Below are positions 12,617 to 57,100 of a stretch of DNA of 64,000 bases, in pieces; within the stretch, counting starts at the first letter, position 1; each line of letters opens with the position of its first letter. The stretch is taken from positions 1 to 64,000 of the IMG/VR virus record IMGVR_UViG_3300044707_000321; one strand, given 5' to 3'. The notes under the pieces were generated by a model. The model was not told the DNA's origin and did not search any database. It saw only the letters and a list, made by a program, of their open reading frames with translations. The stretch is from a virus. A program made the position numbers and the translations under genes.

Positions 12617-12634
12617 TACTAACCTACCTTTCTT

Positions 12635-19725: not shown

Positions 19726-19907
19726 GCAGTCCTCCGGCCAAGCTCTTGTTTAAGATGCTTGAAATACTGACTTCCGGTTTCCCTGCCCTTCGGCAACTGA
19801 GTCCAATTTTTTTTGTCCTGCTCCTTGGTAAAGTTGCCGGAGATCATAGTTTCCAGTCGGGCAATCATCTCTTTGATCGCCTGAGTTTTCATTTTGTTAA
19901 TCTTCAT
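19722..19907 (-). CDS. Small helical protein (61 aa)
   Basis: MKTQAIKEMIARLETMISGN is an amphipathic helix. The rest is basic and polar. It overlaps the nuclease stop and the methyltransferase start by 4 bases each. No family recognised. Confidence 0.5.
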   Translation of the reverse strand: MKINKMKTQAIKEMIARLETMISGNFTKEQDKKNWTQLPKGRETGSQYFKHLKQELGRRTA

Positions 19908-20959
19908 TTTTTCATCAACCTCGGCTCGCTTTCAATCACCTCTAGTTCGTCACCCAACAGATTCGACAATGCCTCTTTTGAGTCTTTCACACCAAGTTGT
20001 TGTTTTTTTGCCAACAACTTCTGCAAATCGCCCACCTTTACGGAACAACAAGACGCAAACTCGGATCCGTTAAGGATGGTCGATAGCTTGGTAAAGGCAG
20101 TCTCAGGACTCTTAATCGCACGACGTTGAACCGGAGAACTCAATTTATAGCCCTTTATTGCTTCAGGATTAGCCCTTAAAAGAGTCTTAGCCTTCTCCTT
20201 GATACTTTCTATGATCTGCTCAACGATTTCGGCCCTAATGAGCAATTCCTCGAAAGGCATACCCAACTCGAACTTCGACTCTTGTGGAACGATTTGCATG
20301 CTTTCGCCTATGGCCGTTTCGCATACGCCGATTGCCTTGCAGTACTTACACCATGTCCCACTCTTTCGTGGGGCATTGTCCTGATCCAGTGCCTTTAGTC
20401 CGGTTAGAATGTTCTCACGGGATAGGCGTATATCACTTTTGGAATAAGCGCAAAGGGTCGTAGGTGAGCCAATCTGGATGATGCCTACGGTAATTTCTTC
20501 AAGGTTGGGATGCTCCTGAGCCATGAGTACGGCCAAGAAGCGGAGTTGAAGATTCTTGCCGGCTTTATCGACTTCGCCCCTGCCTGTCTTGTAATCGATA
20601 ATGATTCCCCGCTTACCGCATGCGGAGATCGCCATGAGATCCCCCTTGCCGGAGGCTAGTTCTTTGCCTTGTTCCACAAGGAACAACCGCTTTTCCCTAG
20701 TTACCAGAGGCTTCTCAGATTCCCAGCTAGCCACAACCAAGTCGCTTTCAGTGTTCAGCGTCTCGGCCATGTCACGTTCAGCGTCATTCAGGGTCGTCCA
20801 AGGTGCTTCGCCGGCTAGCACGTCATGGATCCTAGTACCGGCCTCAGACGCCGGATTGGACGTGTCCGGAAAGCCGGACTCTGCCCGAAAGGATCCTGCA
20901 CAGTTCAGGAAGCGTTTGGCGTTGCTTGCGCTGGGTAATCCTTTGCGCTCGTCGCTCAT
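19904..20959 (-). CDS. RecB/Cas4-like PD-(D/E)XK nuclease with probable Fe-S cluster (DUF2800-type), RecT partner
   Basis: 351 residues. AGTRIHDVLAGE with His45, GKGDLMA with Asp107, and IIIDYKTGRG with Asp122 and Lys124 form the nuclease core; QLRFLAVL is the conserved Q-motif helix. Cys20 together with CKYCKAIGVC (204, 207, 213) gives the four-cysteine pattern of Cas4/AddB-type iron-sulfur nucleases. It lies directly beside RecT and overlaps it by 4 bases, so it most likely resects ends to give the single strand RecT anneals, as RecE does. Confidence 0.85.
   Translation of the reverse strand: MSDERKGLPSASNAKRFLNCAGSFRAESGFPDTSNPASEAGTRIHDVLAGEAPWTTLNDAERDMAETLNTESDLVVASWESEKPLVTREKRLFLVEQGKELASGKGDLMAISACGKRGIIIDYKTGRGEVDKAGKNLQLRFLAVLMAQEHPNLEEITVGIIQIGSPTTLCAYSKSDIRLSRENILTGLKALDQDNAPRKSGTWCKYCKAIGVCETAIGESMQIVPQESKFELGMPFEELLIRAEIVEQIIESIKEKAKTLLRANPEAIKGYKLSSPVQRRAIKSPETAFTKLSTILNGSEFASCCSVKVGDLQKLLAKKQQLGVKDSKEALSNLLGDELEVIESEPRLMKK
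19997..20017. promoter_or_regulatory. Dyad motif copy D (perfect TTGTTG-N9-CAACAA)
   Basis: A perfect copy with arms extended to 9 bp (AAGTTGTTG / CAACAACTT, 19994-20020). It lies within the last ~110 bases of the nuclease gene, upstream of the 61-aa helical gene and methyltransferase. The amino-acid sequence there (LLAKKQQLGVK) does not require the symmetry. Confidence 0.6.
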
Positions 20960-21678
20960 TTTGCTTCCTCAAATATCGGGGTTGCAACAACCGGTATGCT
21001 CGACGCTTTGCCGGCAAACTGGTGGACGTCCTCACGCTCGATCTGATCCCGCACTTCGGGCGACAACGGAACCCACTTGGATGCCCGTCGAAATACCGTC
21101 TTTTTCGCCATCTCATTCCAGTCCGTAACCCAAGGGCCGGACTTACCGGCCTTGGAACGTGACCGGATCGATTCGACGTCGGCCTTTGTCATTACTTCAC
21201 ATTTGTTCGATCCGTCCTTCATGCGAATCATGCAATAGACCGCAATCACGGCCCCACGATCCTTCCGGAAGTCGATCTTGTGCTGTTTGATTTCGCCAAG
21301 GTCGTATTCGAAAACGTCACCCTCGCAAACGACGTCGGCATGGATCGATAGGACGTGGCCTGACCTCATGATCAGGTCAAGGATCCCCTTGTAGTCCACC
21401 ACCAGAGTAGCCACGTTGCCGTAGGGGATAAGGTGCGCCCGTCGCCCGTCCGGTTCTAGGCCCATGGCCCCCAAATCTACCAAGCACTGAAAGAGGCTCG
21501 GCTTCGAGCAGTTCAGCAGGGCCGGCGTCTTGTTGATTGCCATCAGTGCCACCCTTGCGAAACGTTCCGGCGTCAGGTGCTTTGGCAGGGCATCGGAAAT
21601 CTTCTTTTTGAACTCGTCGGATCCGATCAGTTCCCGAATCGTGTTCTCGCTCTTTACTGCAATTTCTTTGTCGCTCAT
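20956..21678 (-). CDS. recT: RecT-family single-strand annealing protein
   Basis: 240 residues, typical of RecT. FARVALMAINKTPALLNCSK then SLFQCLVDLGAMGLEPDGRR, AHLIPYGNVATLVVDYKGIL, and AVYCMIRMKDGSNKCEVMTK followed by ADVESIRSRSK match the RecT/Bet superfamily order. It anneals complementary single strands during phage recombination and replication with the neighbouring four-cysteine nuclease and the SSB-like protein. The short C-terminus after residue 225 is variable in this family. Confidence 0.92.
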   Translation of the reverse strand: MSDKEIAVKSENTIRELIGSDEFKKKISDALPKHLTPERFARVALMAINKTPALLNCSKPSLFQCLVDLGAMGLEPDGRRAHLIPYGNVATLVVDYKGILDLIMRSGHVLSIHADVVCEGDVFEYDLGEIKQHKIDFRKDRGAVIAVYCMIRMKDGSNKCEVMTKADVESIRSRSKAGKSGPWVTDWNEMAKKTVFRRASKWVPLSPEVRDQIEREDVHQFAGKASSIPVVATPIFEEAK

Positions 21679-36726: not shown

Positions 36727-38676
36727 TTATCCTAAGGCTATGCTGAAAGCTATAACTTCAGCGTCAAGGGCGTTTTGGGTTGGCAGTTGTGAAAGAGGAA
36801 TAACTCCATTAACAAGGGTAGCGTAAGAACCTGATTGTTGTTTTCCATCTAGTGCAGTTTGAAGTCCGGTAACATTAGAGATTGAGTGTGTGTGTGATGA
36901 TAGTGCCTTTCCGTCTAAAGCTGTTTGTAGGCTTGTTACTTCGGAAATTGCATGACTATGGGCAGTTGGTGTTCGGGGATCTGAAAGCCTTGAATCATTC
37001 GTGACAACCGCAGTTCCAGTAATTGCCGACGGGGCTATGCCAGTTGCAGGAGCGTAGCTTCCAGATGCCTGTTTCCCATTCAAGGTGGTCTGCAAGTCCG
37101 TTACATCAGAAATTGTGTGAGAGTGAGAAGTCGGTGAAGCCCCAACATCCGAAGCAGTAAGCGTAACTGCACCAGTTTTTGTGTTTACTGAGGTTACTTC
37201 GCTGGGGCTTATTTCAATATACGCACTACCAGACCATCTAAATGTTTTGTTGGTTGCAAGTGATACATAAATCTTTCCGGCCTCACCAGTTGCGGGAAAA
37301 GCCGAATTATTTGCGTATTCTAAAACATCATCGACAAAGCTAGGGAGTTGGTCGGAAGGCACTTTTCCGCTAACTAGAGTTGCGTAAGCTCCAGAGGGTT
37401 GCGCTCCAATATCAGCTGGGGTTAAGGCATCCACTCCGCCAGTTGCGTGAGTGGATTTATGAGCCGTAGGTGTCCTTGGATCTGAAAGACGTGAATCGTT
37501 TGTGACAACGGCGGTACCAGTAATTTCGGAAGGAGCGTGGGTGTGTGCGGACGGAGTAAATGAATTGGGCTTGTTAAGGATTTGTGCATCGCCAGAGACG
37601 GCGTTCCAATCCGCATTAACGTTGACCTCGGCTCCGCTTGCGACTCCATCTAGTTTTGCTTTATCGCTCGATGACATGGAGCCATCTGAAGTCGAGGTAG
37701 CTGTATATTCATGATCCGATTTCCATATCATTCCAGCATCAGTAATCATGCTGTAACCAGACCAGCGGTATGGAGTTAGGGGCGGTACATTCAGAGAACC
37801 CGCTGGGGTGAGGTTAATTCTTGCCGTTACCCCTGCTGGCGTAGTGAATGCAAATCTCAGCCTATCGCCAGCCCTTACCCCTGAGCTTGGAAAATAAATA
37901 TTAATAGTTCCACTTCCGATGAACTCGACTGACCATCTTTTATTTCTGGATGCCGTGAACCTGTTTTGAGTGTTTTCGGGCGCATTAGCATAAAGGGTAT
38001 CTACCTGCTGGCCGAGAACCTCGCCAAGCTCGGGCAGATCAGCGTTGTTGTGTGTGTGAGTCGTTGGTTGCCTAGAATCTGAAAGCCTTGCATCGTTCGT
38101 GACAACTGCAGTACCAGTAATTGCCGATGGAGAAATGCCAGTTGAAGGGGCATAGCTTCCAGATGCTTGCTTGCCGTCGATTGCAGTTTGCAAGCCCGTG
38201 ACATCTGCGATTGCGTGGGCATGGGACAAAAGAGCTTTCCCATCTAAGGTAGTTTGCAGTCCTGTGACATCTGCTACGGCATGGGTATGCGTAAAGTCGG
38301 TTATATTCGACTTGGTGTGTGTGTGTGCCTTGGGATCTCTTGTGTCTGAAAGCCTTGCATCGTTTGTCAAAACCAGATTCGCCGTGTTCGCAATTCCGTG
38401 GACTGATGTGGTTACAGAGTTGTGCGTTGTGATTTTTCCGTCAACCTCTGCGTCTAGTGAGGCTTGGTCTGGGAGATTGGCTACTGGTACTTTTGCGTTT
38501 GCGTCTAGCGGAGCGTACCCGTTAGCTACTCCCTTGTTTGCTTTGTCCTCCTTGTTTGCGATATTCTCAAGGGGTAAAGATGGCACCGCATAGGTGTCGT
38601 TAATGCTTGTTGGTACGGATGTATTAAGACTCGTATTCACACTCGGATTGCTATTGCCAGTTGTATTTAGGCTCAT
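36727..38676 (-). CDS. Tail fibre with phage-tail repeats (649 aa)
   Basis: Carries several copies of the well-known fibre repeat: SHTHSISNVTGLQTALDGK, QASGSYAPSTGISPSAITGT, AVVTNDARLSDSRQPTTHTH and variants. The repeat VTSVNTKTGAVTLTASDVGA marks a conserved fibre module. The N-terminus is Thr/Asn-rich. It forms trimeric, mostly triple-helical shafts in known phages and binds the host surface. The DNA of the repeats is diverged, so they are old or under selection to vary. Confidence 0.8.
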   Translation of the reverse strand: MSLNTTGNSNPSVNTSLNTSVPTSINDTYAVPSLPLENIANKEDKANKGVANGYAPLDANAKVPVANLPDQASLDAEVDGKITTHNSVTTSVHGIANTANLVLTNDARLSDTRDPKAHTHTKSNITDFTHTHAVADVTGLQTTLDGKALLSHAHAIADVTGLQTAIDGKQASGSYAPSTGISPSAITGTAVVTNDARLSDSRQPTTHTHNNADLPELGEVLGQQVDTLYANAPENTQNRFTASRNKRWSVEFIGSGTINIYFPSSGVRAGDRLRFAFTTPAGVTARINLTPAGSLNVPPLTPYRWSGYSMITDAGMIWKSDHEYTATSTSDGSMSSSDKAKLDGVASGAEVNVNADWNAVSGDAQILNKPNSFTPSAHTHAPSEITGTAVVTNDSRLSDPRTPTAHKSTHATGGVDALTPADIGAQPSGAYATLVSGKVPSDQLPSFVDDVLEYANNSAFPATGEAGKIYVSLATNKTFRWSGSAYIEISPSEVTSVNTKTGAVTLTASDVGASPTSHSHTISDVTDLQTTLNGKQASGSYAPATGIAPSAITGTAVVTNDSRLSDPRTPTAHSHAISEVTSLQTALDGKALSSHTHSISNVTGLQTALDGKQQSGSYATLVNGVIPLSQLPTQNALDAEVIAFSIALG

Positions 38677-39410
38677 AATCCTCCTCTAATTCCTACCGAA
38701 AACTTGCATACGCAAGCGAGATTGGCCTTTTCTGACTCAGTAGCGTTCTCGTTCGAGTTTGAATTGCTGTTCTGAACACTGTTGTCGTTCTTGTTGGTTG
38801 TTGCGTTAGTATTGCTATTTCTGTTCTCGTTCTCATTCCGGTTCTCATTCCGGTTCTCATTCCTGTTCTCGTTCCGGTTCTCATTCCTGTTCTCGTTCCG
38901 GTTCTCATTCCTGTTCTCGTTCCGATTCTCATTCCTGTTCTCGTTCCGATTCTCATTCCTGTTCTCGTTCCGATTCTCATTCCTGTTCTCGTTCCGGTTC
39001 TCGTTCCGATTCTCGTTCTGATTCTCGTTCTTGTTTTCATTCCTGTTCTCGTTCCGGTTTTCATTCCTGTTCTCGTTCCGATTCTCATTCCTGTTCTCGT
39101 TCCGGTTTTCATTCCTGTTCTCGTTCCGATTCTCGTTCCGGTTCTCGTTCCGATTTTCATTTCTGTTCTCATTCTCGTTCCGGTTCTCATTCTTGTTCTC
39201 GTTCCGGTTCTCATTCTTGTTCTCGTTCCGGTTCTCATTCTTGTTCTCGTTCCGGTTCTCATTCCTGTTCTCGTTCCGGTTCTCATTCCTGTTCTCGTTC
39301 CGGTTCTCATTCCTGTTCTCGTTCCGGTTCTCATTCCTGTTCTCATTACGGTTCTCGTTCTGATTGGAATTAAGTGTCTCATCTTTTAGTACGTAGTCAT
39401 TGCCATCCAT
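38673..39410 (-). CDS. Asn/Glu/Arg 4-residue repeat protein (245 aa)
   Basis: Residues ~17-198 are an almost perfect repeat of N-E-N-R (with NENK, NENQ and NE insertions), encoded by 12-bp DNA repeats. The end has SNSNSNENATESEKANLACV then CKFSVGIRGGL, with two cysteines in CVC. It starts 11 bases after the GST-repeat gene and overlaps the fibre gene stop. A polar, mixed-charge disordered shaft or spacer on the virion is the likeliest role. No known family; the repeat itself is the evidence. Confidence 0.65.
   Translation of the reverse strand: MDGNDYVLKDETLNSNQNENRNENRNENRNENRNENRNENRNENRNENRNENRNENKNENRNENKNENRNENKNENRNENENRNENRNENRNENRNENRNENRNENRNENRNENRNENRNENRNENKNENQNENRNENRNENRNENRNENRNENRNENRNENRNENRNENRNENRNENRNENRNENRNENRNENENRNSNTNATTNKNDNSVQNSNSNSNENATESEKANLACVCKFSVGIRGGL
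38817..39362. repeat. 12-bp tandem repeat array (NENR)
   Basis: About 45 near-copies of a 12-base unit, in which codons AAC/AAT-GAG-AAC/AAT-CGG/CGC are variable mainly at third positions. The array creates long open frames on both strands (e.g. FSFLFSFRF on the plus strand), which are shadows. Length variation by slippage is expected. Confidence 0.85.
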
Positions 39411-39421
39411 ATATTTATCCT

Positions 39422-40282
39422 CTAGTTCCCCATTGTGTTGTCAGCTTGACCGTAGGTGTATTTGTTGCTTTGGCTTTCGCTCTTTGAACTAGAACTCGAA
39501 CCAGAACTCGAACCAGAACTTGAACCAGAACTTGAACCAGAGCTAGAGCTAGAACTCGAACCAGAACTCGAACCAGAACTTGAACCAGAACTTGAACCAG
39601 AGCTAGAGCCAGAACTTGAACCAGAGCTAGAGCCAGAACTAGAACCAGAGCTAGAGCCAGAACTAGAACTCGAACCAGAACTCGAACCAGTGGTTGAACC
39701 AGTGGTTGAACCAGTGGTCGAACCAGTAGTAGAACCAGTGGTTGAACCAGTGGTCGAACCAGTAGTAGAACCAGTAGTAGAACCGGTAGTAGAACCAGTG
39801 GTCGAACCAGTAGTAGAACCGGTGGTCGAACCAGTAGTAGAACCGGTGGTCGAGCCAGTAGTAGAGCCAGTGGTTGAACCAGTAGTAGAACCGGTGGTCG
39901 AGCCAGTAGTAGAGCCAGTGGTTGAACCAGTAGTAGAGCCAGTGGTTGAACCAGTAGTAGAACCGGTGGTCGAGCCAGTAGTAGAACCGGTGGTCGAGCC
40001 AGAATTAGATCTTACTGTACTTGCGCTTTCGGAACTTGCCTGACTTTGTGTTCCGCTAGTATTCCCGCTTTGACTTTGACTCCCAGCCCCTGTTTTAGAA
40101 GTTGTTTTCTGTATAGCATAAGACGAGTCTTGCCAGCCCCTTACTAGGTTCATCTCGAAATCTACCTTTTCGGGCAGTTCAGCGATTGCGTACTGCCTTG
40201 CCCCAACAATACCAACCTTAATCTGCTGAATCGTTTCAGTGATTAGGTTATCCAGTTCTGAAAGAGGGATAATGTTTTCCAT
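39422..40282 (-). CDS. Gly-Ser-Thr repeat protein with a globular N-terminus (286 aa)
   Basis: Residues 1-60 (IPLSELDNLITETIQQIKVG then ELPEKVDFEMNLVRGWQDSS) are globular and resemble small trypsin-co-occurring (trypco2-like) domains with a beta strand after a helix. Residues ~95-266 are GSTT repeats followed by GSSS repeats. The C-terminus is polar (SNKYTYGQADNTMGN). It lies between head-completion genes and the NENR protein. A virion-surface fibre or stalk linked through its N-terminus is inferred; glycosylation of Ser/Thr is possible. Confidence 0.65.
   Translation of the reverse strand: MENIIPLSELDNLITETIQQIKVGIVGARQYAIAELPEKVDFEMNLVRGWQDSSYAIQKTTSKTGAGSQSQSGNTSGTQSQASSESASTVRSNSGSTTGSTTGSTTGSTTGSTTGSTTGSTTGSTTGSTTGSTTGSTTGSTTGSTTGSTTGSTTGSTTGSTTGSTTGSTTGSTTGSTTGSTTGSTTGSTTGSTTGSTTGSSSGSSSSSGSSSGSSSGSSSGSSSGSSSGSSSGSSSGSSSGSSSSSSSGSSSGSSSGSSSGSSSSSKSESQSNKYTYGQADNTMGN
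39485..40000. repeat. 12-bp tandem repeat array (GSTT then GSSS)
   Basis: More than 20 units of GSTT and about 18 of GSSS, each a 12-base repeat with third-position variation. The antisense frame reads as VVEPVVEP and LEPELEPE, both shadows. The unit length equals that of the unrelated NENR array in the next gene. Confidence 0.85.
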
Positions 40283-40283
40283 T

Positions 40284-41135
40284 TTAGTAGCCCCTCGCAG
40301 ACTTCACCTTATTGGCCGGAGAAGCCATGTCATTAGACTCAAGTTGGCCTAGCCCGATTATTGCGTTTTCGTATCTTTTCATGACTCCATCTTTAGCAAT
40401 CTCAGAGTTCCATAGTTCGGACATGGCTAGTTCGCCTTCGCAAATAGGCAAAAGGAATGACGCAACATGACTATTCCGGACTGGAATCGTTGTTTGAGCC
40501 GAAAGATCGGTGATAACCAACTGGGAAGGCTCAAGTTCTACTGTGATTGAAACAATAAAAGATGTCTCCGGAAGCGGGTGAACACGCAGATAAAATGGAG
40601 GAAACGCCCCGCCAATAGATCCGACTGCTTCTAGTTTATAGGCTGAAGGCTTTCCGACTGCCGTTGGGCTAATCCAGATTTCAGCATCTTCCCTTTTTAA
40701 GACGTTTCCGGAGATTGTTGGGTGAGTGACAACCCTAGCAACACCGGATGGAAGTTGAATTGCATCCCCGTAAATCGTCCCATTAAATGTCCCAGTACCC
40801 CCGCCCCAGTTTGCTAGAAATTGGTTTGTGCTAACAATTTGCTGAGGATCGTTCTTTTCTGAAAACAAAACCGACGATCCCTCTTGGCTTGTGGTCGCAG
40901 TGTAACCGGTGAAGTTCTGACTTCCGTTTGTAAGTCCGAAGGAGGCAGTCATAGGGGCCGGAAGCGTCACACTTGCGCTAGCATGCCGATAGTTTGGAGG
41001 AGTCCTTAGGTGATAAGCCGAAAGGCCGGAGTTGATAATATCAACGAACCGGATCGCATCCTCGACCGTAAGCAAGGCCACGTCCTTAGCCGGCGTAAAT
41101 CGAACGAGACGCTGGGCTAGCTGGGCTGAGTTCAT
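40284..41135 (-). CDS. Putative tail/head-closure protein (283 aa)
   Basis: Beta-rich with helical N-terminus (MNSAQLAQRLVRFTPAKDVA, LLTVEDAIRFVDIINSGLSA). A segment SVLFSEKNDPQQIVSTNQF and the regular strands VARVVTHPTISGNVLKREDA resemble podovirus tail tubular or connector components. Its position directly after the 228-aa adaptor supports a head-tail closure or tail tube role. Family not certain. Confidence 0.55.
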   Translation of the reverse strand: MNSAQLAQRLVRFTPAKDVALLTVEDAIRFVDIINSGLSAYHLRTPPNYRHASASVTLPAPMTASFGLTNGSQNFTGYTATTSQEGSSVLFSEKNDPQQIVSTNQFLANWGGGTGTFNGTIYGDAIQLPSGVARVVTHPTISGNVLKREDAEIWISPTAVGKPSAYKLEAVGSIGGAFPPFYLRVHPLPETSFIVSITVELEPSQLVITDLSAQTTIPVRNSHVASFLLPICEGELAMSELWNSEIAKDGVMKRYENAIIGLGQLESNDMASPANKVKSARGY

Positions 41136-41818
41136 TTTGCCTTAGCCTCCATGGGCATAACCCTCGGTGATGTTCCGGAAAGCACTGCGAGAGCATTTTG
41201 GTAGTCCTGCTCCACGAACGATTCACGTCCTTTATCCACGAAGAACCTAGTGCCTAGACCCAGCTTACGGACTACCGGAAGGAGTATTGCCTCATAGTTA
41301 TGAGGCACTGCGATAACGGTTTGTGAGGCGTAATCAGAGTAATAGTACCGTGTAGGTTGCTTAATCACGTCCACTGAAATACTTGCGGTAGATGTCGGGG
41401 CCGGAACGGTCAGGATCCGTAGCCTTACCGAATCTGCCGTTGCCTGACGAAGCTCTTCCAAGAAGTAGAATTGCGGTGTTCCGGATAAAATCGTGGGAGA
41501 ATCCCCGAAAAGCAGTCCAAAACGTTCGTATGCTCCCCTGCTAGAAATCTGCAAAAGCGGTTGATTTGTCGAAGCTACCCTGACCGGCCCGATAACTGTT
41601 TGAATGTCATCATCCAGTGAGGCAACCCCTGAGCTATTTACAGTAACGGTAATAGTTTCACGGGCAAAATAGGACATCTCTTTTGCGTTTGACCAAATGA
41701 GTTGCATGGCCGAATTAAGGGTATTTACGGTACGATCCCTCAGGAAAGCCGTTACGTTTGTCTCAGCTTCGAATCCCCAGTTACCCCAAAGATCGTCAAA
41801 AACGGTTTTAACTGTCAT
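41132..41818 (-). CDS. Head-tail adaptor-like protein (228 aa)
   Basis: VKTVFDDLWGNWGFEAETNV, then TVNTLNSAMQLIWSNAKEMS, resembles the helical N-terminus of phage head-to-tail adaptor proteins (short helix, Asn-x-Ala, Trp), followed by beta strands YFARETITVTVNSSGVASLD and a later helix HNYEAILLPVVRKL. It lies after the MCP and a small protein and before the 283-aa protein, the usual place of an adaptor. Overlaps its neighbours. Confidence 0.6.
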   Translation of the reverse strand: MTVKTVFDDLWGNWGFEAETNVTAFLRDRTVNTLNSAMQLIWSNAKEMSYFARETITVTVNSSGVASLDDDIQTVIGPVRVASTNQPLLQISSRGAYERFGLLFGDSPTILSGTPQFYFLEELRQATADSVRLRILTVPAPTSTASISVDVIKQPTRYYYSDYASQTVIAVPHNYEAILLPVVRKLGLGTRFFVDKGRESFVEQDYQNALAVLSGTSPRVMPMEAKAK

Positions 41819-42163: not shown

Positions 42164-43654
42164 TTAGCTGATCACTGGGAGGTTCAGACCGGCATAGGCA
42201 ATCGCATGTTCTACGACTGCATAGTTCGGGTAACGCCCGTCGGGACGTTGGAACGGAGTCTGACCGAAGATCGAAGTGATATACACCTTGCGGATGAAAT
42301 CACCGTCGAACATTTCTTCAGTACGCTCGTTCGTGAATCGTCCGTAGCCACGAAGGGCCGAGGAAGCTCCGAGAACCACGGTACGACCAATCGGAACACC
42401 GGATGAGTTGGTTTCCACAATGAGGGAACCAACGGGGTGTTGCCGGCTCAGGTTGGCATTCGCCCAAACGCCAGTTGTGGCGTGAGCAGATACCGCACCG
42501 ATAGTGGCTTTCAAGTAAGATCCGGCAGTATCCGTAGTCTTAGCAAGTGCGCCAGTGATCGTGAGTTGGTTGCCGTTGTTCGAAGTGTAGGAGTAGAGGT
42601 TATATTTTCCGTCCGTCAAATTATAGATCAGGACGTATTTTTCGCTACTTCCGGCACTCAGAGCATCGTCTGGTGACCATTTATAGGCGTAGTTCGAGAA
42701 GAACTCGAAGTACTTAGGGGCAGTCTTATCCCCAGCCGAGGCCGATCCGCCACCCTTCAATGAGAAGGAAGCAGTCGGAGCAGTGGAGAGGTCAGCACCC
42801 AAGTAAGCCTTAGGATTCAGAGGAGAGCCAACCGGCCCCCATCCGTCGTGATCAATCGGGTCATAAGACCGGATTACGTGGCCGTTGATGTTCGAGAATC
42901 CACCCTTAAAGATGTAGTTCTCGTCACCACGGACGCCAGCATCACGTTGAGCCTGTTTGTAGTCGGAAGAGTTCTTCAACGACAACAATCCTTCGCCAGT
43001 CGATACGAATGTGAAGGCATTGACGGAGTTTTTGCCGACTTTGCCAACCAAAGCGGGTTTAGCACCACGGGTACGCATCTGCTGTCCGAAGGTAGTGATG
43101 GCATCCATTGTCAAAACGTCGGCAGAACGAAGATCGTTCGTCGTCGCTTTGTTGTTGGGGCGAACGGTGTTTTCACTGTTGCCTTTGTGGATGAACATCT
43201 TCAGGAGACGTTCGGTTTTTTTCCGTCCGAGCCAGTTACCCAACAAGTTGGGGATGCTGGACTTGAGTTCGGTCATCAAACCGGTTTGATCTTCTGTTCG
43301 GATGTTGTAGGAAACTGCGTGGCGAAGGTAATCGACCGAGAGTGTGTAGCTCCCAACCCGAAACTCTTCGACATTAGATCCTACGATCTCGTCGCCCTGA
43401 ACACCGTCACCGAACAACTGGGCCATTGTCCGGAATGTGATCTTCTGTCCCGCCCCCTTGGCAAGATCGGTTACGCTCATAATGGGGCTATTCTGAGAAC
43501 CACCTTCAAAATCATTGAAGTAATCCTCCTGAGCCTCACTAATCTGCACACCTTTCTTCCAAAGTTTAGGCAAGAAGTCACTGTTTGTCGTCTGAGCATT
43601 AAGCTCGGACGATAAGTTTACATTAGGTACGCTTAGGTTAAATGCTGTTGCCAT
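42164..43654 (-). CDS. Major capsid protein (N4 gp56/DUF4043-like HK97 fold)
   Basis: 496 residues. SDFLPKLWKKGVQISEAQED then YFNDFEGGSQNSPIMSV, FRVGSYTLSVDYLRHAVSYN, and LLGNWLGRKKTERLLKMFIH match the N4-type capsid family; NVEEFRVGSY and KVGKNSVNAFTFVSTGEGLL support this. It assembles with the 340-aa scaffold encoded just upstream. A structured leader with a strong GGAGG site precedes it and a hairpin follows. Confidence 0.85.
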   Translation of the reverse strand: MATAFNLSVPNVNLSSELNAQTTNSDFLPKLWKKGVQISEAQEDYFNDFEGGSQNSPIMSVTDLAKGAGQKITFRTMAQLFGDGVQGDEIVGSNVEEFRVGSYTLSVDYLRHAVSYNIRTEDQTGLMTELKSSIPNLLGNWLGRKKTERLLKMFIHKGNSENTVRPNNKATTNDLRSADVLTMDAITTFGQQMRTRGAKPALVGKVGKNSVNAFTFVSTGEGLLSLKNSSDYKQAQRDAGVRGDENYIFKGGFSNINGHVIRSYDPIDHDGWGPVGSPLNPKAYLGADLSTAPTASFSLKGGGSASAGDKTAPKYFEFFSNYAYKWSPDDALSAGSSEKYVLIYNLTDGKYNLYSYTSNNGNQLTITGALAKTTDTAGSYLKATIGAVSAHATTGVWANANLSRQHPVGSLIVETNSSGVPIGRTVVLGASSALRGYGRFTNERTEEMFDGDFIRKVYITSIFGQTPFQRPDGRYPNYAVVEHAIAYAGLNLPVIS

Positions 43655-44798: not shown

Positions 44799-45236
44799 TT
44801 AAAAAGATTTTATTGCCCAATCGTAAGGGATGTTTTTATCGTCAAACGGCCTCCGGTACTCGTCCGGATTTGCGTAGTCGAATGGTTGATCAACGGTATT
44901 GATAACGACCGCTTCCTTCGTCCCGCATGCCATGAAACCATGCCATAGGTTAGGAGGTATTGTGATCCGGTATGGGCTATTCTCCCCAATGAAATACGTC
45001 TCTGTTTTGCCTGTTTTCTCGTCATAGATACCTACCTTTAGAGTCCCACTGACGCATACAAACTGATCCGTCTGCTTTTTATGGAAGTGCCACGCCTTCA
45101 CTATGTTGGGATTGCACGTAGTCATATATACTTGCCCGAAACTTGTGAATCCATGCTCATCGTTTCTGAGCATTTCCATGAGCCGGCCCCTGCCGTCCTC
45201 GATAACCTTAAGAGGCGTCTTTAGGCACAGGCTCAT
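44799..45236 (-). CDS. RmlC-like dTDP-4-dehydrorhamnose 3,5-epimerase / cupin
   Basis: 145 residues. VKAWHFHKKQTDQFVCVSG (His50, His52), KVGIYDEKTGKTETYFIG, and ITIPPNLWHGFMACG (His99) match the RmlC/FdtA-type cupins. VDQPFDYANPDEYRRPFDDK completes the family. It acts on nucleotide-sugar deoxyhexoses. Next to a glycosyltransferase-like gene, so it may make a sugar for capsid decoration. Confidence 0.82.
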   Translation of the reverse strand: MSLCLKTPLKVIEDGRGRLMEMLRNDEHGFTSFGQVYMTTCNPNIVKAWHFHKKQTDQFVCVSGTLKVGIYDEKTGKTETYFIGENSPYRITIPPNLWHGFMACGTKEAVVINTVDQPFDYANPDEYRRPFDDKNIPYDWAIKSF

Positions 45237-46272
45237 TGGCTTGAGGAATTGAGTTATACTTAATAAATGGTATCTGGCGTACCCTTAGATGTCCGGCAGT
45301 TTCCTCGCAATCCGGCACAAAATAAGGCTCCCAAGCAAACAAGTTGCCTTTGGGATCTTTTTTAACGTGATAGGCCGGAACACCTACAACTAAACCAATC
45401 TTAATCCCTGCCGGATACCATTTGTTCCAGCAAAGGAAAAGGTCTTGAGTGCCGTGTCCGGCATACCCAACAAAGTTACTCAACATCAGTGCCTTCTTTG
45501 AGAGAAGAGTGCAACCATGCCCACACCAGTCAGTAGGCAGAACCGCACCCTGAACGGCAGATCCGGCGTAAGCCTGATCCAACCACCCTCGCTTTCTCCA
45601 TTTTTTCGCATTCAAGGCAAATACGTTCGCTTTTGGTGGGGATTCCTTAAGTTTCTTATGCAAATCATCCATCTCCTTGATCATCTCCTTGGGCGGATTC
45701 TTTCTTTTTAAGGCGTAGGCATTCAACTTCTTAGACATCGCCTTAATCTTTTTGGATAACTCCAGTCCGCCCACTTTTTCGCTAGGCAAGTAATCTTCGG
45801 CAATCTGGTTATACGGAGTACCCCTGCCACATAAAAATGATCCGTTGAAGTATGTCGAACACGTTACCTCGTATCGTGGCGATGACGGATAATTAAGTGC
45901 CCATATCAGGGAATCTAACGAATCAGGATGAACAATTACGTCTGATTCAACAATCCAGCATAAGTCATAGTTTCCTTCTCTAGCCATCTCGAAGCCATTA
46001 CCTAGTAGCTGTGCAATAATTATTTGGGCTTTTTCCTTGTAAGGAATTGCTCCGGAATCGCATACATCAATAGCGACTTCCTTGACATTTAGATTTCCCA
46101 GTCTTGTTAGTGTCCTTATCTTTTCCATTACGGATGAGCTTTTATCAGTGCAAAGATATAGATCCGCACTCCTGCCTTTCAGGGCTACTGATATTGCCGT
46201 AATACATTCCTCGATGGCATACGAGTAGGAGGATGTGCATGGAAGAACAATGCAGATATTTCCGGTTGTCAT
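45208..46272 (-). CDS. GT-A-type glycosyltransferase-like protein (354 aa)
   Basis: CIVLPCTSSYSYAIEECITA near the N-terminus, VALKGRSADLYLCTD, and WIVESDVIVHPDSLDSLIW (a DxD-like ESDV metal motif) fit a GT-A fold. WCGHGCTLLSKKALMLS and YAGHGTQDLFLCWNKWY continue the pattern of acceptor-side loops. It probably transfers sugars to a virion protein. It overlaps the RmlC-like gene by 29 bases. Confidence 0.7.
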   Translation of the reverse strand: MTTGNICIVLPCTSSYSYAIEECITAISVALKGRSADLYLCTDKSSSVMEKIRTLTRLGNLNVKEVAIDVCDSGAIPYKEKAQIIIAQLLGNGFEMAREGNYDLCWIVESDVIVHPDSLDSLIWALNYPSSPRYEVTCSTYFNGSFLCGRGTPYNQIAEDYLPSEKVGGLELSKKIKAMSKKLNAYALKRKNPPKEMIKEMDDLHKKLKESPPKANVFALNAKKWRKRGWLDQAYAGSAVQGAVLPTDWCGHGCTLLSKKALMLSNFVGYAGHGTQDLFLCWNKWYPAGIKIGLVVGVPAYHVKKDPKGNLFAWEPYFVPDCEETAGHLRVRQIPFIKYNSIPQANEPVPKDAS

Positions 46273-48207
46273 TTAGAGGGCATTCCCTTTATAATGTGGT
46301 CTGCCAAACACAAGATATTCGCTTGCCGGTGCAACACCGATCGGGACATAGCTATTTTTAATGGTGATATTAAGATCTTTTGATCCGCTTATTTTGCCTT
46401 CTTGTTTGTATGTAGCCCTTTCTTGGCATGGCCCGATGGTTGGCAATGTTGCACCAAAGTTAGGATTTATTCCAAGGTATGTAGTGCCCGTATTCTCAAA
46501 GTTCTTTGTTTCCTGAAGTTTCAATTCAAGGGTACTCCTGCTTCCTTCCGGACTTCTCATCTTCGTTGTTACCGATACTTTGGTGTTGTTGATTGTACTC
46601 GCAGTTTGGAACTTTTGACGGTTAGCGAAGTTCAGGATATCAATGCACGTAGCATCCCAACATCTGAAAGTATTTGCATCAATTTCTTCTCGTAAGACTA
46701 GATTTGCGTCAAATGCTCTATTTTTGGGGTCTGTGAAATAATACCCGACTCTGTCATGTATATATTCTTGCGCTAGGTATCCAACAGGAGTTTTATAGGT
46801 ATTGTAATGATCAATCTGCTCGTTACCACCTCTTGTTTCGCCCAAGGTTTGTCCATTAAAGCCAGAATAGGAAGCTGTTTGCTTAAATTTTTGTGTTCCT
46901 CCAGCTATTTTATAACCATACGGATAAACAGATCCAGTCGTCTGCATGGTACCACCGTATGAGTTTGTCGTTGGCACTACACCCGTCACTGACAAATCTA
47001 TACAAGTACCCGATGCTGTAGTTGTTTTCCAATATCCACTTTCGTAAGTTTCTAATTTTGTTGTTATTGTTGGCTTCTCATCATCATAGTCCCGATAAGG
47101 ATAAGATCTCCTACCATTCCGAGTTGTGTAGGAAATACCTGTTAGCGTTATCTTTCTCGTTGCGTCCACAAGATTTGTGATTGATAACTGCCCCTGAACT
47201 GTCATAATTCGGCTTGTTTTTCTTGCAATCGGCGTATGGCTAATAACTGCAGTTCTTACGCTTGAATCGTCTTGAGTTATTGGATTTGTAACACCGAATA
47301 TATTGAATGGAACCCTGCCTCTATGTCCAATGAGGAAATCTTCTCTCATACTAAACTCAGCAACAGAGTATTCTAAAGTTTGAAACCCGTGAAAACCACC
47401 AGCAACAACTACAAAATTTTGTGGCTTAGTCTTGCAATTTGAGATATCTGGCGCAATTATAGTCGTATTAACTACAGCCGAAGTGCTTACCATTTTGTTA
47501 TTTTTTACCGTATATCCGTTGGCTTTTGTTGTTGTTGAATATGTGGGTATGCCACTGTAGTACCCCGTAACGTAATAAGTTCCAGAACCCGTGCTGGATT
47601 CAGTATTATAGTTCACTTGAGTACCCGCTTTTACAGAGTTAGTCGCTCCATAACTTCTCATATATTTTTCTTTCGGCCATTCAATCTGACTCCAGTTCTC
47701 ATTTTGCGTAGCCGTATTCCCGTATGCAATCATTCCACCTTCACTTTTGACTAAATCATTCGGTGCGTCCCATCTGTAGGAACTTAAGTACCTCGCTTGA
47801 TAGCGTAATTTTGAACCTTTTCCAACCGTAACTTCCCACTGTTGGCTGGTTTGACCATTTGCGCCAGCCTGATTATTCCGTGGACGGCTATCTGGTTCTT
47901 CAAGGAAAGGCCAAGGCATAAAATAAATGCCATTGCCTACCTCACTCATTGATACCGACTGTGCGTATCCTCCTGTTAGTTGTGCGCCCACCAATTTATC
48001 TACTTTTTGTGGAGGCATTTGAGACGATGCCCCACCTCCTCCTTCGCCACGGTTTGTTTGACCCCTATCGTAACCTTCGACCTTTATACCATTCCAATAA
48101 AAAACAATATCACCACTCTTATTCGATGAATTATTTATTTTATTATTTACATAATTTGTACTAACTTGATCATGATAAAACTTTATCGGCCAAATTGTGA
48201 ATGCCAT
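46273..48207 (-). CDS. Large tail/virion protein (644 aa)
   Basis: Beta-rich, with Tyr/Thr/Asn/Gly-rich repeats (TYYVTGYYSGIPTYSTTTKA, YSGFNGQTLGETRGGNEQI). VEFSMREDFLIGHRGRV-like segments and NVFGVTNP suggest a receptor-binding or adhesive domain. Located after the small 186-aa helical gene and upstream of sugar genes. Tail spike or decoration protein is inferred. Confidence 0.6.
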   Translation of the reverse strand: MAFTIWPIKFYHDQVSTNYVNNKINNSSNKSGDIVFYWNGIKVEGYDRGQTNRGEGGGGASSQMPPQKVDKLVGAQLTGGYAQSVSMSEVGNGIYFMPWPFLEEPDSRPRNNQAGANGQTSQQWEVTVGKGSKLRYQARYLSSYRWDAPNDLVKSEGGMIAYGNTATQNENWSQIEWPKEKYMRSYGATNSVKAGTQVNYNTESSTGSGTYYVTGYYSGIPTYSTTTKANGYTVKNNKMVSTSAVVNTTIIAPDISNCKTKPQNFVVVAGGFHGFQTLEYSVAEFSMREDFLIGHRGRVPFNIFGVTNPITQDDSSVRTAVISHTPIARKTSRIMTVQGQLSITNLVDATRKITLTGISYTTRNGRRSYPYRDYDDEKPTITTKLETYESGYWKTTTASGTCIDLSVTGVVPTTNSYGGTMQTTGSVYPYGYKIAGGTQKFKQTASYSGFNGQTLGETRGGNEQIDHYNTYKTPVGYLAQEYIHDRVGYYFTDPKNRAFDANLVLREEIDANTFRCWDATCIDILNFANRQKFQTASTINNTKVSVTTKMRSPEGSRSTLELKLQETKNFENTGTTYLGINPNFGATLPTIGPCQERATYKQEGKISGSKDLNITIKNSYVPIGVAPASEYLVFGRPHYKGNAL

Positions 48208-48209
48208 AC

Positions 48210-48770
48210 TTACCCTTCGTACCCCCAGCTAAAGATATATGATGGGGGGTAGGTCAGTCCACAATTTGTAAATGTTACATACGCAGTAATACTTCCTAGT
48301 ACTAATCGAGATGGGATTTTATTTTGTATTCTAACCAGTGATACATAGACCTTTGTTGGCGCACTTCCCGTGCTTGCCTCTTGCGACTTGCCAAGAGGCG
48401 GGCCTTCTATCAATTCTGCTGATGTCACTACACCATTTGAAGTGTTTCCTTGGCATATAATTGTGCAGTTCTCATTATTAGTCCCAAATTCAAATAGATT
48501 GCTAGGAATAATTCCATTTATAGCTCCTGCGGTAACACCTATGCCAGTTGATCTTGTTGTGATAGAAAACGGTGGCAATAAAGCACTGTCTGATCTGCCG
48601 AATGCAAACCTCTTGTTTGGAGACTTGTAAGATCCGTCCTCCCCTGAAAATACTCTCGGCCTAGTGTTCTTTAATAGGAACGCAGACCTCTCTACCTCTT
48701 GCCGTTGCCGTTGAAGATCTTGCCGTTGCCGTTGAAGATCATCTTGGATTCTCCGGATGTCATCCCTCAT
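48210..48770 (-). CDS. Virion protein with N-terminal coiled coil (186 aa)
   Basis: The start DDIRRIQDDLQRQRQDLQRQ is a short LQRQRQ repeat coiled coil. The rest is beta-rich with Pro/Gly loops (KSPNKRFAFGRSDSALLPPF). Probably forms the stem of the 644-aa protein, which follows by 2 bases. No family recognised. Confidence 0.55.
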   Translation of the reverse strand: MRDDIRRIQDDLQRQRQDLQRQRQEVERSAFLLKNTRPRVFSGEDGSYKSPNKRFAFGRSDSALLPPFSITTRSTGIGVTAGAINGIIPSNLFEFGTNNENCTIICQGNTSNGVVTSAELIEGPPLGKSQEASTGSAPTKVYVSLVRIQNKIPSRLVLGSITAYVTFTNCGLTYPPSYIFSWGYEG

Positions 48771-51184: not shown

Positions 51185-54100
51185 CTATTCCTTCAGTAAA
51201 TCTTTTAACGGGATTCCGAACTGCTCTCTTCTTGCGTCGGTTCTAGCCTTCTGGATTGCGCTAGAGATTTTGTCCTTTGCCTCAGGGGTTTGTCCCATGC
51301 CTAACAATGGAGCTACGGCCATCTTCGCCTTTTCACCAGCAGACTTGGTAAATCTGCTATACTGTTCAGGAGTCATCTTCTTGTCGTTGCCTGTCAGCGT
51401 CTTGTACGATGCCGTTGGCCTAGATACATAGAACGGATCGGAAGGATTATTGCGGTTATACTTCATCATGAACTGGTCAAGTTTTGAAGGCTCAGGCGCA
51501 TCCTCGAAAGTAATTGGACTGATTGCCCTGATAAGTGCGTTTCCACGCTTCTTAATCTCGACTCCCTCAGGAGTCCTTAGCGGGGGAGGCGCAAGCATTG
51601 GAGCAGGGAGAACGGAGTAGGCTATCCCCTTTAGGGTGTCTTTTCCGGTCTTGGTGTCCCGCACGTAAGGATCCATCTCTCTGAGGGGTTGGCGAATAAG
51701 ATTGGGAACAAGTACTGTACCAAGTTGTCCTGCTGTCCATGTCCCAACGTTGTTCTGTCCGTTGAGGAGGTTGCCAAGATCATCCATCCCCCTCATGTAT
51801 GTCTTACTTTCAACCGCTTGCATTAAGTAGGACTGGAACATCGCCAATACTTCTGCCGGCGGGAGTCCTTGCTGGCCCTTCTTGATTGCCCGAATCATAT
51901 CCACGGTAGTACCTAGAGCAGTGGCAAGCGGATCGATGCGAGCGTAGCTAAACTGCTTGGATCCGACCCGAATCGTCATGGCTGGGAGAGTCCTGTTGGC
52001 TAGATCCCTCTCCCCTTGTCCGGTCAGCTTGGAAGGTTTAGATCCTGAGATTACGATGTATTTGTCATCGTCGTCATCGTCTCCCTCGACCATTCCCCAT
52101 ATCACGGCAGTCACCATGGATGAAACCAGTTGATTCGAGATGTTCTCAATTACTTCGGGTTTCATGTCTGAGGATAAGCTGATCCCATCCTTGTCGAACC
52201 TTATGCCTCTTCCGATAGAGATCAGGGTGTCCGGAAGTCCTAGTGGGCTTTTCTTAACTCCCTCTTTCAAGAGGTTAAATGGTGTCCGAATGAATGGGAA
52301 AATTAGCTGGAAGGGCCGGAGTAGCATGCGACCAACCTCTGACTCTGGACGGGCCTTCACGAACTTGTTGAGCGCACGGGCAGAAGCCCCGACAACATCC
52401 ATAACGTTCTTTGATTCCCCGATGGTTGGAAGCTCGGTTTGGAAGGTGTACGCATACGCTTTCTCCGATGCCTTAATCCAAGCATCGCTCCCTGCCGTAT
52501 TCACTTGCTCCCTAATAAACCTTTCCATCTCCTGACCGGTAAGCCCGTTTGCCTTGCCCATCCGGTAGGCTTGTGCGCCAACCTCCATTTGTGCCGTCAT
52601 TGTCTTTACAAAATCGTCAGTCGCCAAAAGAAGCCGGCTTGGGATTCGTATGAATCTGCCTTTTGCACCAGAAATACTTACTCCCCTTGTAGTAACGCCA
52701 CCCTGCCTATCAAGTTCACCCAAGAGTTTGATCGGTTGATCCAGAATGTCCTCTTCAAAGAAGCCTGATTCGGTGTACCAAGTGGCAACCGCATTTGACC
52801 ATGCCCTACTGATGGCCGGAGAGATACCCGCTACCAAGGGCTTGAACTCACCGAAAGAAGCAGATTTAGGATCGTTGAAAGCTAGGTTCACCATAGACTG
52901 AATGCCTCTTCCGACTGTCATTTCATAGACCGAAAACGGCCCTGAAGATAAGTTGGCGATGAATGTCTTGGCTCCCGATAGGATCGAATTAACCCACATT
53001 TCAACCAGAATGTCGTCCATTGATGATTCTACTGTCTGGATCGCTCTTGCCACACGCTTGACCTGAATTGCATCCGTAATATCGAAAGTGTATCCATCTT
53101 CAGTAAGTTCTGGACGTGGGAAGTTTGGCCCAGCGGGAGCGACCTTAGCCCTGCGACGCTTAAACATGTTGGGTTTGGTGTATGCGTCATCTAGCCCCAT
53201 GGCCGAAAGGATCCGGTCTGCTTGACGCAAGGCATCGGCCTCAGAAACGTTTTGATTCCCGTAGGATGCGCTTGCGCCTAGCTCTTCCGTTGCCAAGTCC
53301 TCGACTGTTGCCCCACGACGGGTCTTAGGCATGAGTTTTTGGCGAATCTCTTCCGCTACGGACTGCCTGAGTGCTTCGATTTCCTCGGCCTTGAGTCCGG
53401 TGATTCGCTTGATCTTCGAAACGTCGTTCCTCTGTTGGATCATCCGAATTGCCTTAACTTCCCTTGGGTTAAGCCCCTTTAAGGTGTTGTCAATCATGCT
53501 GGATGTCTTGAGTGAAACTTGAACTTCACCGGAGAAGAGATCGGCGAGCGTAACCCCCCATTTACCAAGGGCAGTTTCAATCTTGGCTAGCCTCTTGGCA
53601 GTTTCACTTTGGAGAATGTCGTTCGAATCTGGTTCTTTCCGAACCCTCTTTAGTTCCTCTTCCGTAGTCGGATTCGATTCGTTTAGGAGTTGGGCCTCAA
53701 GCTGTTGGATCCTCCGGCTTTTCTCGGCAGGAGAGATGGCATACTTAATCTTTCGCTCGATTTCTTTCGTCGGGTTAAAGATTAAGTCTGTCAGGAATGC
53801 TTTGTGTCGTTCTGCCGGTGTCTTGTAGTCGTCGATTCTGGCCCTGAGTGATCTTGCGACCTCTGATCCGGTCTGCCGGTAGGCGTAGGCCAAGATAGAA
53901 GCCTCTCGTTGAGCCTTCTCGTCGCCCGAAGTCATAGCCCTACGTGCCAGCTTTTCAACAAGCAACTTGGCGGATCGCACCTCTACGTCGGTAGGCAGTC
54001 CGGCTTGAGATGGATCCACTGCCCTTTCGAGCAACATGCGCTTTACGCCTTCCTCGTCGTTTGCGAGTAGCGCACGGGCCTCGGCCATCACGATAACGTC

Positions 54101-57100
54101 AGGCCGGCGTTGCAGGATGTCTTTTCGGGCCTCATCCACCGCATTCACTAGGTTACGCCCCATGCCCTTAGCGGGGTTGGCTAGCGTTGGGTTTCCTGTG
54201 ATTTTGAATCTGTTGCGTTCGTTATCTGCCTTGTTGATTAGCTCATTCGTTTCAGGCAACTCTTTACCTAGATAATCCATGTACTCTTCAACGGCATCCA
54301 TGTCAGGATTCCGAGTGGGTGAGAAAAGTGATTCCATGGGTTTGAACCCTTCGTGGATCTCTCTTTGGGGATTTCTTACGCCCATAGCACTCATAATCGC
54401 CTGAGTTTTGTTCGGGAAAACCGAATGCGAAGTGGGTGTTATGCTTTGGCCGTCGGGGGTAATTACGGTTGTTGGGGATACAATCGCACCAAGAATACCA
54501 TAACTGCTTGTGTATCTGGTTATCCGATATGCCGTGTTCCTGAAATCCGTAAGTGGAACTTGTTTGTAATTAAAATCATTTACTCCAACTTTATCTTCAG
54601 GATTTATAATTGCTTTCGATACAAGAAGTTTTTCGCCCTCATCGTTCTCAAATGCAATCACTCGATTATTCTCGTTCTGCTCAAGTACCTTGTAGGCTTC
54701 TTTAACTTTCTTGTTATTTTCTATCCTGATGTCCTCCATAATAGAATTGTTTTGGGCTATCTTACCAAACTTCTCAAACGACCACTTAAGATCGGGATAT
54801 TTATCTAGGCTTTTATCTGTTTGGATCTGCCCCTTAGCCACATTATCCAAGGACGTCTTAGACGCTAGATACTCGGCAAGTGCTTCTATTACAAACTTTT
54901 TGCCTTCCTCTGAAATATCTCCTTTTCCGGTTTGGTCTTTTTCCGCAACTTCCATCATCGATTTCATGAATCCTAATTCAAACTGCTCTGCCTCATATCT
55001 TTTGTTGTTCGGAAGTCTAAACTTTGACTTGGATTGTCTTGTTGAAGATCCAAGCATTTGCATCTCATCGTCCTGAATTGGATGAGCCTGTCTCCAAGCC
55101 TTTGCACTATCTAGGAACTCATCGATTCTTTCCGTAGCAAACTGATCTAAGGTCAATCCCCTGCTACGGGCCAATTCGGTAAGATACTCAGCCTGAGCCT
55201 GTTCCTCTTCCCTTGTAATTGCCCTAAGGGGAGAATTGAGCCTAGAGATAATCTCCCGTGTGGATCCTGAAATAAGATCCTTAGTTTCCTCGATCCCTAC
55301 CTTTGCCAACCTTTTCCGGAGTACTGAAAGGGCGTTGTTGAGCATCGTCAAAGCGTATTGTCGGGAAATCCCCATCTTTTCTGCGATTTGTGAGACTCCC
55401 TCCCCATTCATGTATGCCGATACAACCGTCCGTGGGCGAACCGGCAGTCCGTCAATCATGGTCTGCATGAGTCTTTGTGCGTCGTTTGTGATAGCGGATT
55501 GCGACGGCAAGCTCTGGTTTTCGTCCGGAATGATGCTACCCAACGGGGCCGTGCTTTCGCCGGACACCGGAGAGTCAATGTTCATGGATCTCATGGAGAT
55601 CTCACGGGCCGTTGCCTCGTTCCTAGAGTAGTTCTTTTTAAGTGCGTTCCGGACTACTGCCTTTGCATATTTATCAAAATCACCGGCATTCGGATCGAAT
55701 CCCTGCACTGCTTTGATGAGTGCGATCCGGCCAATCTGAATAGCCTCGTCTAGCGATGTCTGCGGGGAAACGAACGACCTAGCGATAGGCTCGATTAGGT
55801 TCATCGCATCTTTGGAGAGTAGGCTTGCCTTACTTGGCGTAAGGGCGGGAGCGTTCAACTGCATTTGCTCCGCTTCTACCCTCTTTGTCTTACCCTTGTC
55901 CGTGTAATCCTCCATGATCTTGGCGTATTTAGCCCTAAGACCATCTAGCTCTTCCTTCCTTGGGAATGCCTTGGAGGATGCGATTGTCGCTGAATCTGCC
56001 GTCTCTTGGGCAGATTCCATGCCGTTAATAAACTGTTTCTCGTAACTCTTGAGGTTCTTAACGAGATCCCTCAATGCGCTAACCACGTATCCTGCGCTCT
56101 TTACCTTCGAACCTAATTCACGTCCATTGACCATGACTCCGGTTTCAACCTTGAATGCCTTCTTGGGATCCGGTTCACCTAGAATCTCATCTACTGAAGC
56201 CGGCGAAAGTGTGATTTTTGTTCCGTTGTATGTGAACTCGCCAAGTGGTTTCTTTGCCTCTACGGATGCTGGGAATGATTTTCCGGTTTGGACGGCCTGA
56301 TCCCTACGCTTATCAAAGTACTGTTGGATAGCGTCACGGATGTCGTTTTCTTTAGTCAATGCTACGCCTTCGATCATGGCCGTAGGCTCAGGCGTCCAGT
56401 TTGATACTTCGCTTAGGAACTCCCTTGTCTGGTTAAGCCTGTTTTCGTATGCCTTGACCTGAAGCTCGGCATTCTTGCCGGCCTGAATTGCATCGAATGA
56501 GGATTGAACCCATGCCCGTTCCTGATTTTCTAGCTCACGGATCTTTGTCTCTGTGTTAAACTTCTCAAGCCCCATTGGGCCGGACAAGATGGCCTTTTGC
56601 TCTGCTAGGCTGAGAAGCCCCGAATCATCCTCAATGACACGACCGCTAATCTTTCCACTCAATGCCTGTTTAATGAATCTTTCCTTAAACTCTAGCTTCT
56701 GCCAAAGGGCCGAATCCAACGTATCCTTCATGCCGTACCGGTAGATTTCAACCGGTATGCCAAGCTCTGAGTGAATGTTGCCCTGACGGATTACCCGCCC
56801 GTCCCGTTGCTCCATCTCTGCCGGAGTCCAAGGCACGTCCAAGTTATGTCCGGCAATCATCCGGCCTTGCATGTTCACGCCAGTTCCCAGCTTTTGCGTC
56901 GATCCAATAATGATGCGAACCGTTCCGTTGTTCACCTTCTCAAATAACTGCTCTTTTGCTTGATCGGTCTTAAAATCGTTAATAACTGCAATCTCTTCAG
57001 GCTTTACTCCCTTTTTGATCAGCTTCTCTTTGATGTCTGTATAAAGGTTGAATCCGCCCATGAATTCCGCTTCACGCTCTTCTTTTTCTTCCTCTTTTAC

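Follow-up and report, generated by a model that had tools for sequence, protein, structure and literature searches.

Why would a phage carry, next to each other, two genes dominated by 12-base-pair (bp) tandem repeats of unrelated sequence? The question is raised by genes A and B of the IMG/VR virus record IMGVR_UViG_3300044707_000321, of which positions 1 to 64,000 (hereafter the window) were analysed out of 64,634 bases. Comparison with other phages showed that A and B form one conserved two-gene module, and that the repetitive linkers of the two genes of one phage always differ in sequence, in every phage examined. Neither the conserved module nor the swap of linker classes between A and B is visible from a single sequence. 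The presence of two unlike arrays per phage points to a selected pair of tethers or brushes and not to genetic junk.

Repeat arrays of genes A and B

A preliminary description of the window had reported two adjacent genes with extreme, unrelated 12-bp repeats, placed among connector and fibre genes. Both open reading frames and both arrays were confirmed by the list of open reading frames and by Tandem Repeats Finder. The placement also held: upstream of the pair are a connector-like protein of 283 amino acids (aa) and an adaptor-like protein, and downstream is a fibre-like gene containing PTR repeats. The GSTT/GSSS repeats attributed to one of the two proteins are present in A, with the correction that they form two blocks, 26 GSTT units being followed by GSSS units. 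Tandem Repeats Finder gave a 24-bp period (2 x 12) with 22.4 copies for the B array (score 700) and a 12/24-bp period for the A array (scores 360 and 453). These are the strongest tandem arrays of the window, where the remaining rows score <=88, and they far exceed chance expectation. Open frames on the opposite strand at the arrays are by-products of 12-bp units without stops. Another record, L003, matches the window identically over 4387 bp, A array included; as it may share its data origin with the window, this identity does not prove the assembly.

Differences between repeat units were nearly all synonymous. In the window, 39 synonymous and 0 non-synonymous differences were counted among the GSTT units of A, and 38 and 2, respectively, among the NENR units of B; similar values were obtained in the relatives. 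Since units arise through duplication, every variant was also counted a single time, and nine pooled arrays then gave 51 synonymous and 11 non-synonymous differences (p=2e-15, the null being a one-third expectation). It follows that the peptide is under selection, which speaks against neutral slippage.

Occurrence of the pair in other phages

The close relatives comprise seven further IMG/VR records, in which the 283-aa protein is 94-96% identical, and one record with 100% identity. All of them carry A, and also B wherever the contig extends far enough. Both genes were readable in seven close phages, the window included. A scan with the pattern NENRNENR led to phages with a ~40% identical capsid protein and the same adjacent pair, A being of the GSSS type and B of the SNSN/NENR type. 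Further phages were added by a capsid-profile scan: the repeats are longer or imperfect in L103 and L107, and the versions in L087 and L110 are short and non-repetitive. The divergent carriers of the pair are L104, L108, L109, L103, L107, L087 and L110, with capsid proteins 28-40% identical. The ends of A are homologous between the clades (tblastn, E about 2e-5); L087 and L110 were assigned to the pair by gene order and weak likeness.

In L103, L104, L108 and L109 the pair follows the capsid gene and one small gene, and it precedes the adaptor gene in those contigs that extend so far. In the window, L107, L087 and L110 it comes after the 283-aa gene. As its place in the gene order differs among phages, the two genes of the pair move together. 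The pair is missing from several phages (the L090-L099 group). The L107 locus (11866-12908) displays longer repeat units, of the TDTDATVRTGTQDTTNADAAA type in A, which is net acidic, and of the TTSNKGARSGTSANATTDNST type in B, which is slightly basic.

Linker exchange and dissimilarity within a phage

The class of linker carried by A and B changes from one close phage to another. The window combines GSTT/GSSS in A with NENR in B, and L010 combines GTST in A with NENR in B. L004, L005, L008 and L009 have NENR in A and GTST in B, while L006 has TETK/TDTK in A and GTST/GSSS in B. The imperfect flanks of the arrays follow the class, alternate positions being occupied by Asn in the NENR type and by Thr/Ser in the GTST type. 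In the phylogenetic tree L004 is the sister of the window (98/98), yet the two show opposite A/B arrangements, and L006 and L008 have A arrays of different classes next to upstream sequences with 98% identity. Linker replacement is therefore recent. It had been suggested that repeat number may vary by slippage, and it does differ, as the A arrays of L005 and L008 are 20 residues, or 5 units, apart in length beside an adjoining 283-aa gene with 98% identity. Slippage alone is nevertheless insufficient, because whole linker classes have been replaced, as between L006 and L008.

Within each phage the two linkers contrast clearly. In all seven close phages one linker had a charged-residue fraction of 0.30-0.44 and its partner one of 0.02-0.07, and a weaker split in the same direction as in the window was seen in L104, L108 and L109 (A 0.06-0.09, B 0.21-0.24). 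Inside one phage, exact DNA matches between the two genes were at most 8-11 bp long (13 phages); an A array and a B array of the same class, taken from different phages, shared exact matches of up to 54 bp. When partners were permuted among the seven close phages, 32 of the 5040 combinations were equally dissimilar (p=0.006).

Conserved ends and predicted disorder

Both A and B keep their N- and C-terminal ends across phages while the middle varies, in support of the defined ends noted in the preliminary description. For the start of A, AlphaFold predicted a single helix (residues 7-30) and then an extended stretch, with a mean predicted local distance difference test score (pLDDT) of 66.8. 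Gene B was modelled from a six-sequence repeat alignment without any secondary structure (pLDDT 45.6). By the charge-hydropathy relation every linker was predicted to be disordered except that of L087 A, the S/T/G linkers by a narrow margin. Charge-hydropathy for the linkers and the AlphaFold prediction for gene B suggest that the arrays are disordered, and they make the linker or brush character that had been put forward likely.

The stop codon of B overlaps the start codon of the fibre-like gene, and the DNA encoding IRGGL in B contains a ribosome-site-like stretch, AGAGGAGG, ahead of that gene. The conservation of the B tail in close relatives may therefore be due in part to the next gene. 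A scan for promoters and terminators across A and B gave no signal exceeding that of shuffled sequences.

Genes co-varying with the linkers

Three genes located between the portal and scaffold genes, coding for the 186-aa, 644-aa and glycosyltransferase-like proteins, show alleles in the groups (window), (L007, L010) and (L008, L009, with L015 and L016). These groups match the linker class of A in the five genomes in which both are known, while the surrounding portal, scaffold and capsid genes do not. As an example, L008 and L009 are 99% identical in the glycosyltransferase-like protein and 92% in the capsid protein, and L008 and the window 80% and 98%, respectively. The fibre type also differs between the arrangements: many GGSIN/GGSL (GGSI-type) motifs occur in the fibre genes of L006, L008 and L009, and none in those of the window and L010, even though these fibre genes begin with conserved residues. 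Such allele patterns suggest that the linkers may vary together with a set of surface features, among them possibly glycosylation. The presence of a glycosyltransferase was also considered as a marker of repeats and was not clean, as homologues also occur in phages without A and B.

The hypervariable 644-aa and 186-aa genes (46273-48770, minus strand) form a local recombination island among neighbours with 92-100% identity. A cupin/sugar-isomerase-like protein, also encoded in the structural cluster, adjoins the glycosyltransferase-like gene.

Proposed role and alternative explanations

In the reading that we favour, for which we consider the chances about even, the conserved A-B pair serves as structural tethers or brushes of a podovirus; each protein has docking ends and a disordered hydrophilic linker, and the linkers are swapped. 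The short conserved ends would dock to something, the linker between them would set reach and solvation, and both virion proteins may be located close to the neck or the fibre base. The linkers could be swapped by RecT-type recombination, in which the conserved ends would serve as homology arms. Selection may hold A and B unlike, since matching arrays would recombine and thereby delete or fuse genes. A further possible reason is that like linkers would stick together; a functional alternative is that two different polymers are needed. The linker class might be tuned jointly with variable surface proteins, as which the products of the fibre, 644-aa and 186-aa genes are regarded here, and with the glycosyltransferase-like enzyme.

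A more specific version is put forward tentatively, and we consider it somewhat unlikely as a whole. It proposes a two-component tether system with a dissimilarity rule, in which the linkers are exchangeable cassettes, the same class never occurs twice in a genome, and the cassettes match the alleles of surface-protein and glycosyltransferase-like genes. If true, such a system would represent modular surface-polymer switching. More generally, the A-B pair would show that two repeat arrays per genome are held dissimilar and that selection acts on linker class as well as on length. Near-identical phages with the same ends and different tether chemistry offer a natural experiment in the design of disordered linkers.

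Several points weigh against the tether reading. The seven close genomes are few and are kin within a small tree; on such a small sample of related phages the A-B dissimilarity is a strong hint and not proof. The linkers of L087 and L110 are short and non-repetitive, and as some homologues are thus without repeats, the module can do without the arrays. Homology of B between the clades consists of the short FSVxIRxGL motif (hhalign E 2e-4, probability 50%, 13 columns) and of gene order. A repeat alignment of so few sequences also makes the pLDDT of B weak proof of disorder. The co-segregation with neighbouring alleles concerns five genomes, and shared ancestry may account for part of it, as the tree of the adaptor and 283-aa proteins agrees in part with the allele grouping (78/94). 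Finally, the location of A and B on the virion is inferred.

This last point favours an alternative, a function of A and B in the infected cell, outside the virion, as a condensate, an assembly scaffold or a chaperone. Low-complexity polyampholytes and S/T/G tracts are able to drive or tune condensates. However, A and B are always found among head-tail structural genes, directly before or close to the fibre or adaptor gene, and we regard an intracellular role as improbable.

Alternatively, the S/T-rich linker could be a mucin-like coat, O-glycosylated by the phage's own glycosyltransferase, its charged partner remaining bare. Glycosyltransferase-like and sugar-epimerase-like genes do lie inside the structural cluster, and the glycosyltransferase alleles group exactly by linker class in the five genomes, unlike those of portal, scaffold and capsid. 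The assignment of the enzyme is weak, however (E 0.0035, below the cut-off). Homologues occur in phages without A and B (L090, L092, L093 and L097-L099), and the pair-bearing records L104 and L107, which are fragments, yielded none. Such a coat appears rather improbable.

Ordered beta structure, with arrays building a fibre or a sheet, is quite unlikely. The idea draws on the alternation of polar, acidic, polar and basic residues in NENR and TDTK, as in ionic self-complementary peptides, and on the alternating Thr of TSTG. This two-residue alternation is strong in the NENR, TDTK and GTST arrays (lag-2 identity 0.40-0.52, lag-1 near 0). It is broken in GSTT, though, and AlphaFold predicted no strands for B; both faces would be polar, and hydropathy lies on the disordered side.

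It is very unlikely that the arrays act at the DNA level, as slippage or recombination hot spots for switching of the fibre downstream or for phase variation of expression. The 12-bp units keep the frame and the fibre type differs between arrangements, but unit variation is synonymous and thereby preserves the peptide, and homologues without DNA repeats retain both proteins. Simple repeats arise easily and GTST arrays occur in other phage proteins too, but functionless products of neutral slippage are extremely unlikely in view of the synonymous bias between units, the conserved ends and the pairing.

Locus and neighbouring genes

The gene order in the window is SU10-type portal (PF23899, E 2e-29), capsid protein, adaptor-like protein, 283-aa connector-like protein, A, B and PTR-repeat fibre-like gene. 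The coordinates of all features are given in Table 1. The RecT and PD-(D/E)XK/DUF2800 genes (19904-21678, minus strand) constitute a recombination system carried by the phage. Towards the end of the window, one open frame of ~4270 aa combines helicase-like domains with a sigma-70 region 2, an uncommon combination in one giant phage protein.

Table 1. Features of the A-B locus and of other genes in the window.
Feature	Position	Strand	Remarks
PD-(D/E)XK nuclease/DUF2800	19904-20959	minus	Beside RecT
RecT recombinase	20956-21678	minus	Plausible engine of linker exchange
Fibre-like gene, PTR repeats	36727-38676	minus	N-terminus kept in relatives, remainder variable
Gene B, 245 aa	38673-39410	minus	Short N-terminus, NENR linker, C-terminal FSVGIRGGL
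B C-terminal segment	38673-38753	minus	Ends with SEKANLACVCKFSVGIRGGL and stop; aligns with divergent B homologues at FSVxIRxGL
B repeat array	38829-39360	minus	NENR, occasional K/Q replacing R; 24-bp higher-order unit
Gene A, 286 aa	39422-40282	minus	N-terminal anchor, GSTT/GSSS linker, C-terminal YGQ-type motif; open reading frame, homologues in divergent phages
A C-terminal motif	39422-39460	minus	TYGQADNTMGN and stop; homologue endings TYGR, TWGEY, TYGQ, YAEY
A repeat array	39498-40009	minus	GSTT units, then GSSS units; unit variation synonymous
A N-terminal anchor, residues 1-64	40091-40282	minus	93-100% identity in close relatives; predicted helix 7-30, then extended segment
283-aa connector/nozzle-like protein	40284-41135	minus	Adjoins A; 93-100% identity in close relatives; distant likeness to adaptor gene
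Adaptor-like protein	41132-41818	minus	Weak SU10_adaptor match (PF24175, E 5e-4), under curated Pfam cut-off
Major capsid protein	42164-43654	minus	Phage capsid match
Cupin/sugar-isomerase-like protein	44799-45236	minus	Polysacc_synt_C, FdtA and dTDP_sugar_isom matches
Glycosyltransferase-like gene	45208-46272	minus	Weak assignment (E 0.0035), under cut-off; alleles co-segregate with linker class
644-aa protein	46273-48207	minus	24-36% identity between linker groups; neighbours 92-100%
186-aa protein, coiled-coil start	48210-48770	minus	Alleles co-segregate with 644-aa gene; 62-69% between groups
Giant open frame	51185-64000	minus	ResIII, SNF2-related and Helicase_C domains; sigma-70 region 2 match

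Comparison with known systems

Searches of A, B and their homologues against Pfam, PHROGs and NCBIfam returned no family above cut-off, and no fibre-type domain above cut-off was detected in A or B with Pfam and PHROGs. Matches to FliH and ClfA were attributed to composition effects. PDB searches with the profile of the A end and with the 283-aa protein gave nothing convincing. By tblastn of phage records, distant relatives of the capsid and portal proteins were obtained and no match to the 283-aa gene. Neither the capsid profile nor the A end retrieved any relatives from genome contigs, and hence no link to a host was obtained. A query made of the B end and the fibre start retrieved mostly unrelated fibres with a NKGIANGYAPLD motif, which lack the pair; the other matches of a GTST pattern scan were likewise unrelated. 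No description of such a pair was found in the open-access literature, and descriptions elsewhere remain possible.

The closest known system is the tail module of SU10-like (Kuravirus-type) podoviruses (PMC9509320), with which the window shares relatives of the SU10-type portal and capsid proteins and, given the weak match, perhaps of the adaptor protein, as well as the position of fibre genes after the adaptor or adaptor-like gene. The tail parts listed for SU10 are the portal gp6, the adaptor gp11, the fibres gp12/gp13/gp16, the nozzle gp17 and the needle gp18, and they include no pair resembling A and B (PMC9509320). A text search of the same structure paper did not find the words 'linker' and 'disordered' (PMC9509320).

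Long GTST tandem arrays were also observed in large proteins (678-1454 aa) of the unrelated phage contigs L112, L114 and L127, and in a partial frame of L125, indicating that this repeat type arose more than once. The proteins of L112, L114 and L127 share with the A-B pair the TSTG repeat as a long linker, but there it is part of one large protein; a paired gene was not sought. ClfA-type Ser-Asp repeat adhesins resemble the pair by their low-complexity, Ser-rich stalk, the NCBIfam match (E 0.0026) being composition-driven and far under the cut-off. They differ in that A and B are phage genes without adhesin or wall-anchor parts.

Gly-Ser and polyampholyte entropic linkers resemble GSSS arrays and well-mixed E/R polymers in composition and expected behaviour. 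In comparison, the A and B linkers occur naturally, as tandem repeats and in a pair, and change places between two genes. An alternating X-acid-X-base pattern is also displayed by ionic self-complementary peptides such as RADA16, in which X is the hydrophobic Ala. NENR and TDTK share this alternation, with Asn or Thr as X instead of Ala.

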